Source: a virus
Virus record (IMG/VR): IMGVR_UViG_3300017783_000245
Location: 1 to 21,885 of that record
Direction: 5' to 3' (one strand)
DNA length: 21,885 nt
A program made the position numbers and the translations under genes. Below, piece by piece: positions 2,027-21,885 of this stretch (position 1 is its first letter; the number at the start of each line of letters is the position of its first letter). Below the pieces are notes generated by a model. The model was not told where the DNA came from. It was given only the letters and a program-made list of their open reading frames with translations, and searched no databases.

Positions 2027-2665
2027 TCAGTTTGTCCAACCGTCCACCTCAGGAGGGTAAACTCCTTTAGGTATCACTTTAAAGTTTGCACTAAAAGTAA
2101 TACGTTCTGTTGTACCACGATGTGGTGTAACAAGGTGATGATAATGAGATGGGAATATCAACAGCGTACCTTGTGTAACATCAGGAGTCGTGAATTGTTC
2201 TGATGGTATGCTCAACGTATCTGCTAATCCAGAGAGTCGAACAAACTTATGGTCTTCATTATAAAATTGGAACTTACACTCATCATCAGCATTTGACTGG
2301 TAGAAGTATACCATACTGACATTACATGTTGGTGTGCAGTGATCATGAATCTCTTGCGAATCACCAGGCATGTATTTGTTTACCCATGCTTCTTCTAGCA
2401 TGATTTCTATATTCTGTTGTGCCCCTACTTGATCAACAAACTCATCAAAATAGGGTTTCATTACCTCTAACCATTTTTGCCATGGTAGATTGTTGTTCCC
2501 CTCAACTTGATATGAAGATTGAACATTACATGCCCAATACTTTGGTTGAGCAAAGTTTTGATCATCAGAAATGTAGTCCGAAAAATACTCTCGAACTTTT
2601 GATTGTTCATCTTCAGTGAATTTACTAATGTAATACCACTTAGGATTAAATACTTGAATTGTCAT
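2027..2665 (-). CDS. 2OG-Fe(II) oxygenase (cyanophage type)
   Basis: This 212-residue protein resembles the 2-oxoglutarate/Fe(II)-dependent dioxygenases common in marine myoviruses (the group with an HxH-type first ligand, 2OG-FeII_Oxy_5-like). The double-stranded beta-helix core is recognisable. The first metal-ligand region is IHDHC with His107 and His109. The distal part is LLIFPSHYHHLVTPH (candidate distal ligand among His174, His176, His177), followed by ERITFSANF with Arg188, which usually holds 2-oxoglutarate. The start codon overlaps the stop of the upstream gene by four bases. Such enzymes hydroxylate proteins, nucleic acids or small molecules; the substrate cannot be read here. Host carbon/nitrogen signalling through 2-oxoglutarate has been proposed for cyanophage members, but that is not shown by this sequence. 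Confidence 0.88.
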   Translation of the reverse strand: MTIQVFNPKWYYISKFTEDEQSKVREYFSDYISDDQNFAQPKYWACNVQSSYQVEGNNNLPWQKWLEVMKPYFDEFVDQVGAQQNIEIMLEEAWVNKYMPGDSQEIHDHCTPTCNVSMVYFYQSNADDECKFQFYNEDHKFVRLSGLADTLSIPSEQFTTPDVTQGTLLIFPSHYHHLVTPHRGTTERITFSANFKVIPKGVYPPEVDGWTN

Positions 2666-3697: not shown

Positions 3698-4540
3698 CTA
3701 TACACCGAAGCGTGATCGTGTTTTTGTGAAATGATTCTTAATTTGAGCATCAGACCAATATTCTGATAACAATGCTATTTGTGCTATATCACCATCATAA
3801 TAGACATTATTTCTAGCGCCATCGTTTCCTGTTGCTTCAGAACCATCACCAATGAATCCCCATCTACGTGAACCTTGGTTCAAATATGAGAAACTATAAG
3901 TGCGTGTTCCATCAGGTTCTCCATCAAGATAGAACTTAATGTAACTATTAGAAGAAGAAACTACTACTGATGCCATGTGCCAATTACCATCATTACATGG
4001 AGTATCTCCTGTAATATCATAGTAAGAACCTACGTTGCTATTAGATTCACCAGAGAACTGAATTTTTCCAGTAGAACCTATGTTATAACTAAGACATTCA
4101 GATCTATCCCAATCTAACCATGACCAGTTGCTGCTATCCCATGCACCACCAGCATCTGCCGTGCCATAAGATGTTCTAAACCAGATAATAAATGTGATTT
4201 CACCCATTCGTCCATTGTTACTATCACCATGACTACCACCGTTACCATAGTTTAGATCATTAATCCAACCATAGTGAGTACTACCATTGAATGCCCAATA
4301 TCCAATGCTACCATCACCAGTTGTCACAGTATCATTATACACAGTGCCATTTACCATGGTCACGTCAGCATTAGCAAGCAAGGGATGTTGATACTTGGAT
4401 AACCATTTAGTACCAACAATTTGATCTGGTGCTCCATCCCAAAATGCTTCGATTCTTGAGAGAGTAGCATCAATGCCAGTGAAAGGTGCAGATGCACCAA
4501 CACCAGCACGTAAACTAGGAAGAGATAAAATAGGCGACAT
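3698..4540 (-). CDS. LamG-like (concanavalin-type) tail fibre/adhesin protein
   Basis: This 280-residue protein probably sits on the virion surface. Its second half reads as a LamG/concanavalin A-like beta-sandwich. It has the hallmark DGNWHMASVVVSSSNSYIKF followed by YLDGEPDG (about 185-215) and the closing YYDGDIAQIALLSEYWSDAQI (about 248-268), matching the G-x-I-x-x-hydrophobic...LSDAEI end of Laminin_G_3 domains. Glycine-, asparagine- and serine-rich strands precede it. Such domains bind carbohydrate, so a role in host receptor recognition is plausible. It starts two bases after the preceding gene ends and is the last gene before the terminator. The fold call is good; the exact position on the particle is inferred. 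Confidence 0.78.
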   Translation of the reverse strand: MSPILSLPSLRAGVGASAPFTGIDATLSRIEAFWDGAPDQIVGTKWLSKYQHPLLANADVTMVNGTVYNDTVTTGDGSIGYWAFNGSTHYGWINDLNYGNGGSHGDSNNGRMGEITFIIWFRTSYGTADAGGAWDSSNWSWLDWDRSECLSYNIGSTGKIQFSGESNSNVGSYYDITGDTPCNDGNWHMASVVVSSSNSYIKFYLDGEPDGTRTYSFSYLNQGSRRWGFIGDGSEATGNDGARNNVYYDGDIAQIALLSEYWSDAQIKNHFTKTRSRFGV

Positions 4541-4542
4541 AA

Positions 4543-5106
4543 TTAACTATATGTTGTTGTTGAACCCATCACAATATATGTGTTGGCAGCAGTTTTAGTG
4601 ATAGTATATGAATATACATCATATCCTGATGCTCCACCTTTTGCTTGTGGAGTGCCACCTGTCCAATAAACAGTTCTAGCAGTGCCATCAATACTTAGTG
4701 TTGCACTATATCCAGATGCTCCACCAAGTGCAGTGATCATTGTATATACTGTTACCTCACCAACTCCTAGCATTGATTCTAGTGTAGTGCTACCATCTCC
4801 TCTTAAATTATGAGTCCAATTGCCCGTACTTGCAGTTGTCCAAACCTTTACACCACCACTAATCAAGTCTATATTTGTACTAGAATTTGATGTATTTGCA
4901 ATAATTTGTGCAGTCTCCATTAGTGGTGTTGATTTTAATCTTACACCACCACTTTGTACCACCTCAAACGCTGCTGTTGGAGATGATGTGCCGATTCCTA
5001 CCTTATTTTCAGAGGCATCTACAAATAAAGTATTGGAATCAGCATCGATATCACCAGTTGTAACAACCGAAATGGCATTTACTGTTCCAACAGTTAGTGT
5101 TGACAT
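4543..5106 (-). CDS. Tail-fibre-like virion protein, 187 residues
   Basis: This 187-residue protein has the N-terminal module common in cyanophage fibre proteins: DSNTLFVDASENKVGIGTSS (about 23-42), also found in divergent form in the 464-residue protein at 8366-9760. The middle and end are Thr/Gly/Ser-rich beta repeats (SLDG- and YWTGG-type turns), as expected for a trimeric fibre shaft or head. There are no enzymatic motifs. A late-promoter motif, GATAAATA, lies 26 bases upstream, so this gene and the LamG-like gene form a two-gene late unit ending at the terminator. It may be the shaft or adaptor for the following adhesin. Confidence 0.7.
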   Translation of the reverse strand: MSTLTVGTVNAISVVTTGDIDADSNTLFVDASENKVGIGTSSPTAAFEVVQSGGVRLKSTPLMETAQIIANTSNSSTNIDLISGGVKVWTTASTGNWTHNLRGDGSTTLESMLGVGEVTVYTMITALGGASGYSATLSIDGTARTVYWTGGTPQAKGGASGYDVYSYTITKTAANTYIVMGSTTTYS

Positions 5107-5115
5107 GAAATGATC

Positions 5116-6861
5116 CTATTCTTCTTCATTCCTATTTATCTTATCAATAACAGCAATAACAACACCATTCCACCAGTCATTCGCATCTTCTGGTATTTCA
5201 GTGGTAATAATTCTCTTGAATAATACATTTTTGTCAGATAAAAACTTCTCTGCATTGTCAGTACAGGTCTGGAAGTTGGCATCATCAATGACCAAAATGT
5301 AATTATCTTGTGCTTCGTTATGCAAATGTTCTAGGTTTGCGACCATGTTATCTTCAATCTCTGCATCATAGAATATTACACTAGGACGATATTCAGTGTT
5401 AAAGTTGATCTCTTGAATAGATTTCAATGAGAGCACAGCAGAGCAATTAAGATTCATCCACTTCTCAGTATTCTTAATGAATGTATCTACAGGATTAGTA
5501 ATACGTTCAAAATCCTCAAACAAGTCTTTACGTTTAGGTACAATTAAACCATCAGAGAAATCATCAATTGCATATGCTTTGACTGATTCATTATTCATAA
5601 GAGCAGCAAACACTGTGCTGCCAACATAACAACCAACGTCAGCATATACTGTGCCACGTTCACTACAAAGATTGTTTAGTAAATGTCGTACTTTATTGGA
5701 AGATAGACCTACAATATCATACCCTACAGGATCAAATTTAGAATTATTATCTACTGCACCATCAATAGAACGAATAACATGATCAACTAAAGGATTCATT
5801 TTTCTCTGTTGCTTCTTCAGATGTGATTCTACCACAGTTTCACAATAATTACAATCCCAACAGTTAAACTTACATGTCTTAATCTTATCACGCCATATGT
5901 CAATTGGTTTCTCTTTGATGTCTACATCATTCAAATACTTTTGATACTCAGGATACATGAGAGTTTCATGATTTGCCCACCGTTCAACTAAATCCATGGA
6001 TTCTTTAAGACGCATTGCATCCTCTCTACCGTGCATTTTAAACACATCGATGCCATTATCTAAGAACCATTGCCAATCACTCCTCCAAGGCGGTAGATTG
6101 GCGCTCTTGAGTTCACTTGCAGGATCATATGCATCCCAACGTGAACATGAAACACGACTAATCTCACTGCTAAAGTATGCTGGTTCTGTGCCCTTTCGTG
6201 TGGCATTGTATTGATAATGCTCTGGCATAATAGGACAACCACCCCAGCAATGTTCATTAGCAAGTAATGATAATTCTATGGGTGTTCCTTTATTGGCACA
6301 ATAATCTTTTGCTTTGAGTAACATCTCAAATGCATCTTGATCGCGCATGATATCACGATCTAAGTTGATATAGTTAAACCCAGCACTCGCAAGAGTGACA
6401 ATTTCATTAGGTTTGATTACATCACGTAGAATTGTATTCTTAATCTTTAGTTCGGGAAATTCTTTCTTGAGTTGTCCTGTCATCACCCATGATGTATGGG
6501 GGATAGTTGCAGTTCTAACACCATTATCATACAAAAACTTAAAGTTCTTGATAAACTCATCTAAATTCTTTTGATCAGGTCTTACCCAGATGTTATTGAA
6601 TGTAGCAGACAATGGGATCTGAGTTTTCTCTGAAATATACAGAGCATTCTTTACAGCATCTTGTGCTGATTTGCTGCTAGTAAATACATCACCCATCGCA
6701 TCCTGTGCGAATGGTGGCATACGAGAGGTGAAGTATAAATCATAAATTAGCGTGTTATGCTTAAGAAGAAATGGAATAAACTCTTCTTCAAGATAATCAG
6801 GGGGCAATTTGGGGTTTATCGGCAGACTGAATCGACCTATCTGCGATGTTGTTGGTTGCAT
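5116..6861 (-). CDS. Peptidase-U32-like domain fused to class I SAM methyltransferase
   Basis: This 581-residue, apparently two-enzyme protein has an N-terminal half (about 15-250) that reads like the TIM-barrel U32 family: IPLSATFNNIWV, FLYDNGVRTATIPH, LKKEFPELKIKNTILRD, then ELSLLANEHCWGGCP with Cys205 and Cys209, and SCSRW with Cys239. Modern U32 members (UbiU/UbiV, TrhP) bind 4Fe-4S and act in oxygen-independent hydroxylation. A further cluster, CKFNCWDCNYC (Cys330, 334, 337, 340), follows. The C-terminal part (about 375-575) is a TylF/Methyltransf_24-like methyltransferase with glycine motif YADVGCYVGST (406-416) and IFYDAE...LVIDDANF (497-530). The ATG at 6861 has GGAG 12 bases upstream; its first 65 bases overlap the preceding gene. 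Its place among tail-fibre genes suggests modification of a virion protein or glycan, but the substrate is unknown. Confidence 0.72.
   Translation of the reverse strand: MQPTTSQIGRFSLPINPKLPPDYLEEEFIPFLLKHNTLIYDLYFTSRMPPFAQDAMGDVFTSSKSAQDAVKNALYISEKTQIPLSATFNNIWVRPDQKNLDEFIKNFKFLYDNGVRTATIPHTSWVMTGQLKKEFPELKIKNTILRDVIKPNEIVTLASAGFNYINLDRDIMRDQDAFEMLLKAKDYCANKGTPIELSLLANEHCWGGCPIMPEHYQYNATRKGTEPAYFSSEISRVSCSRWDAYDPASELKSANLPPWRSDWQWFLDNGIDVFKMHGREDAMRLKESMDLVERWANHETLMYPEYQKYLNDVDIKEKPIDIWRDKIKTCKFNCWDCNYCETVVESHLKKQQRKMNPLVDHVIRSIDGAVDNNSKFDPVGYDIVGLSSNKVRHLLNNLCSERGTVYADVGCYVGSTVFAALMNNESVKAYAIDDFSDGLIVPKRKDLFEDFERITNPVDTFIKNTEKWMNLNCSAVLSLKSIQEINFNTEYRPSVIFYDAEIEDNMVANLEHLHNEAQDNYILVIDDANFQTCTDNAEKFLSDKNVLFKRIITTEIPEDANDWWNGVVIAVIDKINRNEEE
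5133..5140 (-). promoter_or_regulatory. T4-type late promoter motif
   Basis: The minus strand reads GATAAATA, matching the cyanophage late consensus NATAAATA, 26 bases before the ATG of the 187-residue fibre gene. It lies within the last codons of the upstream gene. Late genes of this group depend on a gp55-type sigma factor. Confidence 0.65.
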
Positions 6862-7693
6862 AATCTGTTAATACTCCAGTGGTGTCAAACATTTGTGGCG
6901 GTCTTCCATCTAACATTTTATCGACTCGATTCTCTGCCGATTCTTTAATACCGCCGATACATCTATTAAGTGCTGTTGAATATGTGAGCGCAAGGTCAGC
7001 AACTGCTACTTGATCTTCAGGAGTCATCATCAACATACTCTCAAGATTACCTGATTGTATTCTACCACTAGTTAGAAGATCTAGTGCAGATTGTTTTGCC
7101 ATACGAGCAATCCAATACTTATGTTCTTCTTCCTCAAGGATATTATGATCGCTAATCCTATCCATCAGTTCGGTTGGATGATTAACATCAATATCATGTC
7201 GCTGTTTAATAATTTTCATCAATCCGTCCAGTTCTTGTTTAGACTGATTAATTTTATTTGCCCAGATTGTTTTATCAATTAGGAGCAATTCTAGTTCATA
7301 ACTCTTGTCTGTACGGTCCCACTCATCTTCTTCATGTTCAATCTCCATTCTAGTGCGAGCGATGTCATTAAGACACCGTTTATATTGAATGGTAGTTTTT
7401 TGCAGGGCATTATATCGTGACTGGATCTCCATGCACGCTTGTCTTAATTGTCTATATGGTGTTACTTGCGAACCAATAACAAAATATTTATTTTGATACT
7501 CAGACTGTTCAAAGTATTGAGTATCCGACCACTGAATTACTTGTTTGTCGAAGTCATCAAGATCCCAAGAATCAAAGTCCTTGAGATCTTCCACAATATC
7601 ACTTAAACTATAGTTATCAGAACTGAATGCCCGAGGGAGAGGGGATTTTTCTGCTGACAACGTTTGTTTCATCGTCTCTTGTACATCTTCCAT
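6797..7693 (-). CDS. Unrecognised helical protein, 298 residues
   Basis: I do not recognise this 298-residue protein. It is acidic near the N-terminus (SDIVEDLKDFDSWDLDDFD, about 30-48). From about residue 80 to 200 it is strongly helical, with heptad-like charged stretches (TRMEIEHEEDEWDR and NKINQSKQELDGLMKIIKQR) typical of a coiled coil. There is no signal peptide or membrane segment. It overlaps the upstream gene by 77 bases and the downstream fusion gene by 65 bases in different frames. An alternative ATG seven codons in would shorten the first overlap. The position among late genes suggests a structural, assembly or scaffolding role. Confidence 0.7.
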   Translation of the reverse strand: MEDVQETMKQTLSAEKSPLPRAFSSDNYSLSDIVEDLKDFDSWDLDDFDKQVIQWSDTQYFEQSEYQNKYFVIGSQVTPYRQLRQACMEIQSRYNALQKTTIQYKRCLNDIARTRMEIEHEEDEWDRTDKSYELELLLIDKTIWANKINQSKQELDGLMKIIKQRHDIDVNHPTELMDRISDHNILEEEEHKYWIARMAKQSALDLLTSGRIQSGNLESMLMMTPEDQVAVADLALTYSTALNRCIGGIKESAENRVDKMLDGRPPQMFDTTGVLTDYATNNIADRSIQSADKPQIAP

Positions 7694-8366
7694 ATGCTAA
7701 ACACAAATCATTAGATAAAGGTATACCAAAGTAGTCTTCTAAGAAGAGATTCACATCTTGAACGTTAGTACAAGATTTGCAAGTGGCAATAACTTTCTGT
7801 TCTTGTACGGCAAGATCATAAAGTTTCTCTTTCCACTCAGATTGCTTCTCTACTACTTTACTCGCAAATGCCTCAGTTGTCAAACCTCTAACTTCTGCTA
7901 ATCTATGTATAAGTTTAGTTTCAACAGTTGAATCTGCAATATATGCCTCAGATTCAGCAAGTTGGTCTGCCCATGTTATCTCTTCTAGATATGAATAGTT
8001 AGTACGCAGGTCACTATACCTTTTCTCAAAAATCTCTTGTACTGCCAAAGCAATTACTGCTTCCATAAATGGATTGACGTACTTAGAATATACATCAGGA
8101 ACGTTTTCTTTACTCTTTAATGTAGTTCCTTCCTCATCACTACCATAAGATGATGTCTGTTTCCTAGTTTCACCCCAATATCTATAACCATAATCTGCTG
8201 TTTTATAATCAAACCTCAGATAAGTTACCTCATGAGGAATATAATCCCAGTATATATCATCTAGGATAAAAAATCCTAAACCTAGTTTGTTGCCGAGAAT
8301 TGTTCCCCAATTAGCAATTTTGGGGAATCTTTCTTGATCTAAAACAATAACGTCTCTAGTTTCCAT
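7617..8366 (-). CDS. Unrecognised late protein, possibly tail-fibre assembly related
   Basis: This 249-residue protein begins METRDVIVLDQERF and is rich in aromatic residues in its first third (FFILDDIYWDYIPHEVTYL). From about residue 95 to 195 it is helical and charged (RLAEVRGLTTEAFASKVVEK and neighbours). That helical part recalls the DUF4376-like region of some tail-fibre assembly chaperones, but the match is by general pattern only. Three Cys lie near the C-terminus (CKSC and a later C). Its start codon shares one base with the stop of the kelch-like fibre gene (TGATG), so it is probably coupled to that gene, in keeping with a chaperone or partner role. Confidence 0.66.
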   Translation of the reverse strand: METRDVIVLDQERFPKIANWGTILGNKLGLGFFILDDIYWDYIPHEVTYLRFDYKTADYGYRYWGETRKQTSSYGSDEEGTTLKSKENVPDVYSKYVNPFMEAVIALAVQEIFEKRYSDLRTNYSYLEEITWADQLAESEAYIADSTVETKLIHRLAEVRGLTTEAFASKVVEKQSEWKEKLYDLAVQEQKVIATCKSCTNVQDVNLFLEDYFGIPLSNDLCLAYGRCTRDDETNVVSRKIPSPSGIQF

Positions 8367-9760
8367 CAGAAGTTGGGGATATTTGTACCATAATCATATG
8401 CAAGAGTGCCATCACCATTTGCACCACTTACAGCAGATGCAGAGGAACAATGAGCAGAACTCATGCCATCATGACCTTTAGGTTCTGCTGTAGCACCCAA
8501 GGAAGTTGTACTATCAGTTTGATAGTTTACCTTGAACGTTTGATTGTTCTGAGCACCATTATAGTTGCCCAAGCAATAACCTTTTCTCATGCCCATTTGG
8601 AAGTTTTCTTCACCCATTTGACCAAAGTTGATGTTACTGAGGTTAACACCTGTAGTATCATCAATCTTAGAATTATTATTCTGGTTATTGTTACCTCTAC
8701 CACAATAGAAATGACCAATCATAGATGACAGAATTTTCTTCCAACCATCACCAGCAGGAGCAGTCGCCCATGTTACCCAAGATTCAGTTTTCCAATCAAA
8801 TGCTTGTCTAGTATTACCTCTCTTATACCATCCTCTAAGTCTACCATGTCCACCCCATGTGGGGTCATCTCCAGTATCACCAGGAGAATTAGGGAAGTTA
8901 GCAGTAGACATCACTTCATTGGTAATATTAAATCTGTCCATCCTAGCATTACCACCACCATACAAGTAAGAGTAACCACCAGCAAATACATGATCTTGGA
9001 ATGAACCCATAGATGCACGAGATACGGTCATATCCCATGAACTTTGGTGTGCAATACCAACCTCATTGGTCATACTAAATCCAGATGTATAGTCAGAAGA
9101 ACCTCTATAAGTGTTCTCCATTGAGTGGAAGAAATGTTTATTATCATTCCAGGATCCTGACATGTAAGCACCAGATTTATCTAGTGTATCACCCAAGTTG
9201 ACAGATGTGTCTGTAGCATGGACTGTACGGTTTACATTGTTCCAAGGAGCAGATGATTTATATCCTCCGCCAACATAACCATGAGTCCAGATTCTCGATA
9301 AGGACCAAGAAGAAGCATTTCCACCGTCAAATGCCCAATATGTATTAGTGCCGTCTGATTTAAGAACAGCATTTTCAGAATAGTCGGCACTATATCTATC
9401 TGTTGACTGAGTAGGTGTGCCACCAGCACCAGCAATCGGTCCCCATTCTACTGCGGCAGTTTCTTCATTGAAAGCATAACCTTCAAATGTTCGATCTGTA
9501 GAGTTATATCTAAATAAACCTTCAATAGGTGTTGCAGGTCTTTCAGCAGTTGTTCCTACAGGTACAATAATACCATCAGTAGCATTAATATCTAGAGATG
9601 CTCTAGGTGTGGTGGTATTAACACCAATTTCATTATTTACACTATCAATATAGAGTGTGCCATTATCAAACTTAAATCCACCACCAGATTCCAATTGGAT
9701 CTCAGGGGATCCAACACCTCCAGTGAGGGATACTATTTTGTCAACATTAATTTGAGACAT
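8366..9760 (-). CDS. Tail-fibre-like protein with kelch/beta-propeller-like region
   Basis: This 464-residue virion protein has layered modules. NGTLYIDSVNNEIGV (about 33-47) is followed by the shared fibre module VPVGTTAERPATPIEGLFRY (66-85) ending in a Trp near 106. From about 140 on there are repeated strands in a kelch-like pattern (YVGGGY, HVFAGGYSYLYGGG, then ...MDRFNITNEVM and ...GFSMTNEVG), suggesting a beta-propeller or similar disc-shaped receptor-binding head. The C-terminal part is Gly/Asn-rich. A late promoter lies 22 bases upstream of the ATG, and AGGAACCAGGATC provides the ribosome site. It heads the late unit that includes the two unrecognised proteins and the fusion enzyme. 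Confidence 0.7.
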   Translation of the reverse strand: MSQINVDKIVSLTGGVGSPEIQLESGGGFKFDNGTLYIDSVNNEIGVNTTTPRASLDINATDGIIVPVGTTAERPATPIEGLFRYNSTDRTFEGYAFNEETAAVEWGPIAGAGGTPTQSTDRYSADYSENAVLKSDGTNTYWAFDGGNASSWSLSRIWTHGYVGGGYKSSAPWNNVNRTVHATDTSVNLGDTLDKSGAYMSGSWNDNKHFFHSMENTYRGSSDYTSGFSMTNEVGIAHQSSWDMTVSRASMGSFQDHVFAGGYSYLYGGGNARMDRFNITNEVMSTANFPNSPGDTGDDPTWGGHGRLRGWYKRGNTRQAFDWKTESWVTWATAPAGDGWKKILSSMIGHFYCGRGNNNQNNNSKIDDTTGVNLSNINFGQMGEENFQMGMRKGYCLGNYNGAQNNQTFKVNYQTDSTTSLGATAEPKGHDGMSSAHCSSASAVSGANGDGTLAYDYGTNIPNF

Positions 9761-20790: not shown

Positions 20791-21465
20791 CTACGTGTCG
20801 GTGTAACGCTGATAATCATAAGTTTCTTCTTCCTCAGTTTTATACTGCCACTCATCAGTATGCCCAACTGACCACCATTTTGGTTCAGTTTCGACTGCAT
20901 AATTTTGTGTACAAACTTTAAAATCAGGTTGCTTAAGTTTATCTGGAATGAGACTACCGTCTCTCCAGATCACTCTATTGTTTGGTTGAGCAGCAAATTG
21001 TCCATTATCAAGGGCGATGATATTGAATGATTTGTGTTCGGGGTCCAACTCAGAAAAATTGGTATCAATAATAGAATGATCTGGATGAGCAGAGTCAATT
21101 GTGAATTCATATTCTCCCGAATGCATCCGTTTATCTTTGCCAAAGAATTCACATCTACCTAGTAATGGTTTTCTCACTACTGTGATATTATAATCAAAAC
21201 AATCCCAAAGTTCAAGCACATCTAACGGTAACTGATCATCTGGATTGAAGTCAGTCTTCCATACAAATGCACTTAAAGGCAATTTATCATACAAAGCACC
21301 ATATTCTGTGAGTAATGTCTCAAAATATAATGCTTTAGTTTGAACACTTTTTACTGAGATCCATATACCAGGAGTTAATTCTCCATGACCTTTTTGATGG
21401 TCATAGAGGAATTCTTTTTTAACCCATACTGGATTTGGTGGGATCGGATGTACCAGAAACGCCAT
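20791..21465 (-). CDS. Conserved cyanophage hypothetical protein, 224 residues
   Basis: This 224-residue protein begins MAFLVHPIPPNPVWVKKEFL and contains DHQKGHGELTPGIWISVKSV (22-41), LYDKLPLSAFVWKTD and LDNGQFAAQPNNRVIWRDGS. I associate this sequence type with a conserved protein of unknown function in T4-like cyanophages. It is acidic at the C-terminus, rich in Trp/Tyr/Phe and without membrane spans, so it is probably a soluble, compact mixed alpha/beta protein. Its start lies 47 bases inside the preceding 44-residue ORF. It may be part of, or an accessory to, the structural module, but nothing in the sequence proves that. Confidence 0.8.
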   Translation of the reverse strand: MAFLVHPIPPNPVWVKKEFLYDHQKGHGELTPGIWISVKSVQTKALYFETLLTEYGALYDKLPLSAFVWKTDFNPDDQLPLDVLELWDCFDYNITVVRKPLLGRCEFFGKDKRMHSGEYEFTIDSAHPDHSIIDTNFSELDPEHKSFNIIALDNGQFAAQPNNRVIWRDGSLIPDKLKQPDFKVCTQNYAVETEPKWWSVGHTDEWQYKTEEEETYDYQRYTDT

Positions 21466-21553: not shown

Positions 21554-21571
21554 AAAATTATATATAACTTA

Positions 21572-21643
21572 CTCCCCTTCCTGGGATCGAACCAGGGACC
21601 AAACGATTAACAGTCGTTCGCTCTACCGCTGAGCTAAAGAGGA
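21572..21643 (-). tRNA. tRNA-Asn (GTT)
   Basis: The 72-base cloverleaf has acceptor TCCTCTT paired to AAGGGGA with one G-U pair, a D-arm TAGCTCAGCGGTAGAGC, an anticodon loop CTGTTAA giving GTT, and a T-loop GTTCGATCC. The discriminator is G. The 3' CCA is not encoded. Confidence 0.95.
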
Positions 21644-21649
21644 TTGATA

Positions 21650-21731
21650 TGGGCAGGGTTGGATTTGAACCAACGTAGGCAGAGCCAGTGGATTTACAGT
21701 CCACCTCCATTAACCACTCGGACACCCACCC
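21650..21731 (-). tRNA. tRNA-Tyr (GTA)
   Basis: This is an 82-base type II tRNA with a long variable arm (TGGCTCTGCCTACG region). The acceptor GGGTGGG pairs with CCTGCCC through two G-U wobbles, the anticodon loop CTGTAAA gives GTA, and the T-loop is GGTTCAAATCC. The discriminator is A, and CCA is not encoded. Confidence 0.94.
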
Positions 21732-21733
21732 AA

Positions 21734-21805
21734 AGCCTCTGACAAGATTTGAACTTGCGACCTGAGCTTTACAAAAGCCCTGCTCTACCACTGAGCTACG
21801 GAGGC
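21734..21805 (-). tRNA. tRNA-Thr (TGT)
   Basis: The 72-base cloverleaf has an anticodon stem GGGCT/AGCTC around loop TTTGTAA, giving TGT (reads ACA and other ACN). The acceptor GCCTCCG pairs with CAGAGGC except for a C6-A67 mismatch. The discriminator is T, and CCA is not encoded. It lies two bases from tRNA-Tyr. Confidence 0.92.
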
Positions 21806-21808
21806 ATA

Positions 21809-21882
21809 CGGGATTGATGGGACTTGAACCCACGACTTCCTGCGTGACAGGCAGGCGCTCTAACCAACTGAGCTACAACCCC
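21809..21882 (-). tRNA. tRNA-Asp (GTC)
   Basis: The 74-base cloverleaf has acceptor GGGGTTG/CAATCCC (one G-U), anticodon stem CCTGC/GCAGG, loop CTGTCAC giving GTC, and T-loop GTTCAAGTC. The discriminator is G, and CCA is not encoded. It is the first visible tRNA of the cluster; more may lie beyond the window edge. Confidence 0.95.
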
Positions 21883-21885
21883 ATA

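Follow-up and report, generated by a model that had tools for sequence, protein, structure and literature searches.

Few known enzymes hydroxylate without O2. The U32 oxidases (PF01136), which include TrhP, RlhA, and UbiU/UbiV, belong to this group, and the oxygen they add likely comes from prephenate. The consensus Cys motif of the family is CX6CX15CX3C (PMC11574389), a Glu eight residues before the first Cys is essential in TrhP and RlhA (PMC6599085), and U32 hydroxylation is prephenate-dependent (PMC6599085, PMC11574389). In B. subtilis, the U32 proteins YrrN and YrrO (TrhP1 and TrhP2) are needed for hydroxylation of tRNA U34, and YrrM (TrmR) O-methylates the product to mo5U34 (PMC6599085). 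Among phages, a U32 protein annotated as 'peptidase' (phrog_5757; the RB69ORF050c group) is encoded by Straboviridae with arabinosyl-hydroxycytosine DNA, where it carries no methyltransferase and adjoins genes for chorismate mutase and a thymidylate-synthase-like protein. This arrangement was found in Serratia phage LC53 (L094:2986-5191), in Yersinia phage phiR1-RT (L081:5530-7858), and at L080:5923-7840, the mutase matching CM_2 at E 1.7e-11 in LC53 and 8e-9 in phiR1-RT. In these Straboviridae, the mutase could supply prephenate for a U32-assisted C5 hydroxylation of dCMP, a step that the literature attributes solely to the synthase. A search of plasmids gave no relatives of the Straboviridae U32 protein. 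On the methyltransferase side, the Methyltransf_24 family (PF13578) takes in TylF-type sugar O-methyltransferases.

The window analyzed here is a stretch of 21,885 bases from an IMG/VR virus record that resembles T4-like cyanophages. It encodes an intact 581-aa ORF at 5116-6861, as an earlier note on this DNA had said, and the ORF lies on the minus strand, which that note did not give. The protein joins a U32-like barrel to an O-methyltransferase in one chain, and our tentative reading, to which we give slightly less than an even chance, is that the two domains together methoxylate a component of the fibre apparatus. The genes of the region are as follows.

2027..2665, minus strand: 2OG-Fe(II) oxygenase in the same region (PF13759, E 1e-11)
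3698-4540: Laminin_G_3 ORF downstream of the fusion gene (E 2e-9)
4543-5106: fibre-like ORF downstream of the fusion gene (phrog_5906, related to phrog_1417)
5116..6861, minus strand: U32-like barrel/O-methyltransferase fusion, 581 aa (phrog_1458; T4-GC 354)
6797..7693, minus strand: partner gene 1, partly coiled-coil (phrog_1409, T4-GC 353), overlapping the fusion gene
7617..8366, minus strand: partner gene 2 (phrog_1604, T4-GC 352), overlapping partner gene 1
8366..9760, minus strand: fibre-like gene directly upstream of the trio (phrog_1417, T4-GC 351), overlapping partner gene 2

Direct sequence searches of the window protein against Pfam, NCBIfam, and the PDB returned nothing significant for either domain. 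The profile phrog_1458 covers almost the entire protein (E 1e-281), and phrog_36869 (346 aa) matches residues 9-351; both are labelled 'unknown function', and cyanophage annotation lists the gene as 'hypothetical protein'. Homologues detected by tblastn in 50,697 phage records occur in 123, all of them Synechococcus or Prochlorococcus phages, and scans of IMG/VR found relatives of the N-terminal domain encoded in at least 579 stretches. Because the reading frame is kept end to end in the 123 records and relatives are this widespread in IMG/VR, the fusion is not a chance ORF. The copy in Prochlorococcus phage P-SSM3 (L084:5923-7640) is split into ORFs of 445 and 114 aa, which is a frameshift or a sequencing error, and the gene is unannotated in that record. 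A standalone barrel, hinted at by the 346-aa length of phrog_36869, was rejected, as none occurs among 161 N-terminal ORFs, in which seven exceptions reach contig ends and one is an internal fragment. We put weak Yippee, PKD-protein, and CbiT-like matches of the window protein down to chance or fold noise. Outside cyanophage-type viruses, the fusion is almost absent, and a scan of 84,980 cellular genomes found the gene in two short MAG contigs only. These contigs, L085 (PBPE01000072.1) and L086 (DANB01000001.1), are binned as Dehalococcoidia and Euryarchaeota and carry the cyanophage gene, with L085 also sharing the fibre/partner synteny of cyanophage loci; both are probably phage contamination, and a cellular origin of the fusion was rejected. 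The literature searched, which excluded most subscription journals, held no paper joining U32 with cyanophages. Relative to that literature, the fusion, its cysteine pattern, and its obligate linkage to the fibre cassette are new, and the components and likely chemistry are already known.

The features within the fusion gene are listed here.

5134..5730, minus strand: Methyltransf_24-type methyltransferase, residues 378-576 (PF13578 in relatives, YrrM match in the PDB, Rossmann fold)
5281..5367, minus strand: stretch with the putative metal-binding codons Asp499, Asp526, and Asp527 (invariant in 31 sequences; YrrM alignment)
5806..6840, minus strand: N-terminal U32-like TIM barrel with terminal Cys cluster, residues 8-352 (AlphaFold, 5d88 fold match, hhalign)
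5842..5874, minus strand: codons of Cys330, Cys334, Cys337, and Cys340, putative Fe-S site 2 (conserved in 31/31)
6145..6249, minus strand: codons of barrel Cys205, Cys209, and Cys239, putative Fe-S site 1 (conserved in 31/31)

The earlier note had named beforehand, as grounds for giving up its reading, a structure prediction lacking either a TIM barrel or a Rossmann methyltransferase; AlphaFold predicts both. The full-length model, built on a 31-sequence alignment, consists of a TIM barrel followed by the methyltransferase (pLDDT 82.5, pTM 0.65), and the N-terminal domain modelled alone is again a TIM barrel (pTM 0.82). With the barrel alone as the Foldseek query, the solved U32 protein 5d88 had the highest TM-score and the fourth-best E-value among the best 50 matches listed, in which MTHFR barrels scored close to it; its TMt was 0.66-0.68 across Foldseek searches and 0.68 with the full chain. 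A structural match in BFVD was the 'Peptidase' of Escherichia phage OLB35 (E 1.7e-9, TMt 0.70). Sequence comparisons lead to the same phage group: tblastn with the window protein reached Straboviridae 'peptidase' genes at E 0.07-1, the reverse search from the Straboviridae protein reached cyanophages at E 8e-4 and 1e-3, and hhalign aligned the barrel with the Straboviridae U32 proteins over 310 columns, extending into the terminal Cys cluster, at E 5e-8, an E-value for a single comparison. These Straboviridae relatives, whose barrel is homologous and whose terminal cluster of four cysteines resembles that of the fusion, themselves pass the PF01136 cut-off. The same type of comparison with four E. 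coli U32 proteins was far weaker (E 0.012).

In common with the U32 oxidases, the fusion has a TIM barrel, conserved cysteines near the barrel end, and a conserved Lys-x-x-Gly-Arg near the last strand, and its homology to them is detectable by way of the Straboviridae proteins. It differs from them in being viral, in its fused methyltransferase, in its cysteine spacing (CX3C-X29-C plus CX3CX2CX2C, all invariant), and in giving no PF01136 match, be it in the window protein, in eight related virus records, or in two divergent family members scanned singly. The U32-like barrel claimed in the earlier note therefore stands as to its 5d88-like TIM fold and its homology to Straboviridae U32 proteins, whereas no PF01136 match and no canonical Cys motif were found. 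We call the barrel U32-like because it is homologous to the family yet lacks two defining marks of the characterised members, the Cys motif and the essential Glu, and it is a divergent branch rather than a textbook member. That its nearest phage U32 relatives sit within a DNA-modification cluster would fit a fusion that modifies DNA precursors to give methoxy-cytosine DNA, as the U32 protein of arabinosyl-hydroxycytosine Straboviridae may; however, no nucleotide-metabolism gene adjoins the fusion gene, whose linkage is to fibre genes, and we consider such a role very improbable.

Residue conservation was assessed in an alignment of 31 homologues of 40-75% identity. Cys205, Cys209, and Cys239 and the cluster C330-KFN-C334-WD-C337-NY-C340, all singled out in the earlier note, are present, and far from varying freely among homologues, the possibility on which that note would have abandoned them, the seven residues are invariant in 31/31. 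The remaining five cysteines (188, 399, 411, 473, and 533) vary, each being kept in 1 to 15 of the 31. Also invariant are Glu203, His215, Arg222, Lys275, His277, and Arg279. The CX6CX15CX3C motif is absent from the fusion protein, and position 197, where the essential U32 Glu would fall, is not a conserved Glu, Glu203 being invariant instead. A radical-SAM reading of the CxxxCxxC was rejected, as the motif lies after the barrel, and lacks an aromatic residue before its last Cys, and no radical-SAM relative turned up. The missing motif and Glu, together with the lack of a PF01136 match and the similar Foldseek scores of MTHFR-like barrels, would suit a barrel that is no hydroxylase but a structural or electron-transfer Fe-S (or Zn) domain positioning the substrate for a plain methyltransferase. 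We regard this as improbable, because the barrel is the more conserved part of the protein (49-83% identity to the window sequence versus 23-65% for the methyltransferase, in separate alignments) and many invariant polar residues lie beside its cysteines, which points to catalysis.

The earlier assignment of the C-terminal domain to the Methyltransf_24 type is borne out by relatives and by structure. PF13578, which is below detection in the window protein itself, scores 38.3 bits in L056 and 41.1 bits in L069 against a cut-off of 26.3, and the Rossmann fold appears both in the AlphaFold model and in Foldseek matches. When the methyltransferase profile was compared with the PDB, the top match was B. 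subtilis YrrM (E 1.8e-4, over part of the domain only) and the second was the YrrM-like S. aureus protein MW1564 (E 0.013). Asp499, Asp526, and Asp527, invariant in the 31 sequences, match the D and DN of YrrM in the alignment; by analogy with known COMT/TylF-type enzymes, we infer that they are metal ligands, as in metal-dependent O-methyltransferases. Although family members exceed the Pfam cut-off and the Asp triad is invariant, the domain is very divergent from Methyltransf_24/TylF-type enzymes and differs from them in being joined to a predicted N-terminal Fe-S-type barrel. Searching phages with the methyltransferase domain by itself brought up nothing beyond this family except one weak match in an uncultured phage, and a link to phrog_2675, labelled 'DNA methyltransferase', was taken as a shared methyltransferase fold.

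The place of TylF-type enzymes within Methyltransf_24, the presence of viral macrocin O-methyltransferases among the BFVD structural matches of the fusion, and a fibre context that suits glycan chemistry are all consistent with a methyltransferase acting on a sugar or glycan of the fibre or host surface, which the barrel would oxidise or prepare. Yet no glycosyltransferase was identified in the module within the window, and characterised U32 proteins target aromatic rings or bases, and such a role seems to us decidedly improbable.

The genomic setting favours a component of the fibre apparatus as the target of methoxylation. The fusion gene does lie between tail-fibre genes, as the earlier note had it, with the fibre-like gene 8366-9760 upstream and the ORFs at 4543-5106 and 3698-4540 downstream. 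From the successive overlaps of 65, 77, and 1 bp, we infer that the fusion gene is co-transcribed with its neighbours, the fusion, both partners, and the fibre-like gene 8366-9760 likely being read from one message; the late-promoter motif CTAAATA showed no excess over chance (3 seen versus 4.3 expected). The fusion gene, 6797-7693, and 7617-8366 match 123, 123, and 125 of the 50,697 phage records, respectively, and the organism-name split of the trio's matching records is identical (77/38/8); the comparison between lists was made on counts and on tallies of organism or host, and part of this co-occurrence stems from many closely related isolates. The two extra records of 7617-8366 carry the name 'Bacteriophage sp.'; one of them was examined and proved to be a Helicobacter prophage in which only about half of the protein was matched. 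By comparison, the window's helicase is found in 418 phage records.

Co-conservation with fibre genes in cyanophages, which the earlier note had proposed to survey, proved nearly complete: both partners accompany the fusion in 127/127 loci having enough upstream sequence, and a fibre homologue lies upstream in 107/108. Within the first locus set, the partners are immediately upstream of the fusion in 70 of 71 loci, the exception being S-RIM14, where they are several kb away. The trio stays linked even where identity has dropped to 40% for the fusion and to roughly 10-30% for the partners. In S-SM1 (L095:7839-25027), between the tail-fibre genes GC346/347 and the GC357 region, GC348 and GC350-354 are absent, so that most of the cassette, including the fusion and both partners, is gone as a block, and several 2OG oxygenases and ferrochelatase-annotated genes stand in its place. 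No annotation was found for the partner proteins 6797-7693 and 7617-8366; a tail-fibre-assembly role for the latter was set aside as a guess from sequence, lacking Pfam or PDB support.

If the fusion methoxylates a fibre-apparatus component, the barrel would hold an Fe-S site at Cys205/209/239, probably joined by another at Cys330/334/337/340, and would add a hydroxyl group without O2; the metal-dependent O-methyltransferase (Asp499/526/527) would then transfer a methyl group from SAM to that same hydroxyl, giving a net methoxylation of +30 Da. A methoxylating enzyme is the best reading of the fusion because it joins a U32-like barrel to a YrrM-related methylase and B. subtilis offers the precedent of U32 proteins acting with YrrM. 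The idea is chemically apt in light of the mo5U34 pathway, in which U32 hydroxylation is likewise followed by O-methylation by a related methyltransferase; there, however, separate proteins act on tRNA, and here one chain is encoded in a fibre cassette. As the gene is apparently co-transcribed and is co-inherited with two partners and a fibre gene, the fibre itself or the partner proteins 6797-7693 and 7617-8366 would be the likeliest substrate; the partners might alternatively serve in substrate delivery. Given that the partners have no annotation, this assignment is a guess from context. The more specific claim that cyanophages methoxylate a tail-fibre-apparatus protein via a single-chain Fe-S hydroxylase/O-methyltransferase is doubtful, and to our knowledge, U32 enzymes act on RNA bases and quinones rather than on proteins, which counts against a fibre-protein target.

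The similarity to YrrM keeps tRNA as the chief rival target. The fusion would then be a single-chain equivalent of TrhP and TrmR, placing 5-methoxyuridine or a related methoxy base in phage or host tRNA and tuning late decoding. YrrM and its S. aureus relative are the two top PDB matches, the substrate of TrmR in B. subtilis is supplied by U32 proteins, and the window holds four tRNAs, one of them for Thr with anticodon UGU. Still, the YrrM match is weak and partial, the gene sits in a fibre cassette and occurs only with two genes of no apparent link to RNA, and S-SM1 has tRNA genes yet lacks the fusion gene at this locus. On balance, we think tRNA modification unlikely.

A viral U32-like/methylase fusion locked to a fibre cassette in more than 100 cyanophage genomes would extend the U32 family to a viral chain that includes the next enzyme of the pathway, and perhaps to protein substrates, and would connect host recognition by abundant ocean viruses with oxidative tailoring chemistry. 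Were a protein of the tail-fibre apparatus the target, the fusion would be the first example of a U32-type oxidase with a protein substrate, and its product would represent a new class of post-translational modification of virions, one linked to host recognition. The fused chain with its seven invariant cysteines is also a compact system for the study of mechanism.

Several other features of the window and of related loci deserve mention. Four tRNA genes, Asn(GUU), Tyr(GUA), Thr(UGU), and Asp(GUC), occupy 21572-21883 on the minus strand, and the ORF at 21558-21833, which overlaps them, is probably spurious. The ORF at 20791-21465, also on the minus strand, matches phrog_3704, whose 'ferredoxin' label is doubtful here because there is no significant Pfam match. 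The 2OG-Fe(II) oxygenase is only loosely associated with the fusion: 40 of 76 loci have a homologue no more than 4.5 kb downstream. In 14 of the 76 loci with enough downstream sequence, the fusion is followed by both a 2OG-Fe(II) oxygenase and a tryptophan halogenase (PF04820, E 5e-98), and three loci (L053:7653-11066, L063, and L078:7632-9188) have 2OG-Fe(II) oxygenases and the halogenase just past the fusion. These oxygenase and halogenase genes possibly form an oxidative tailoring set beside the fibre genes.
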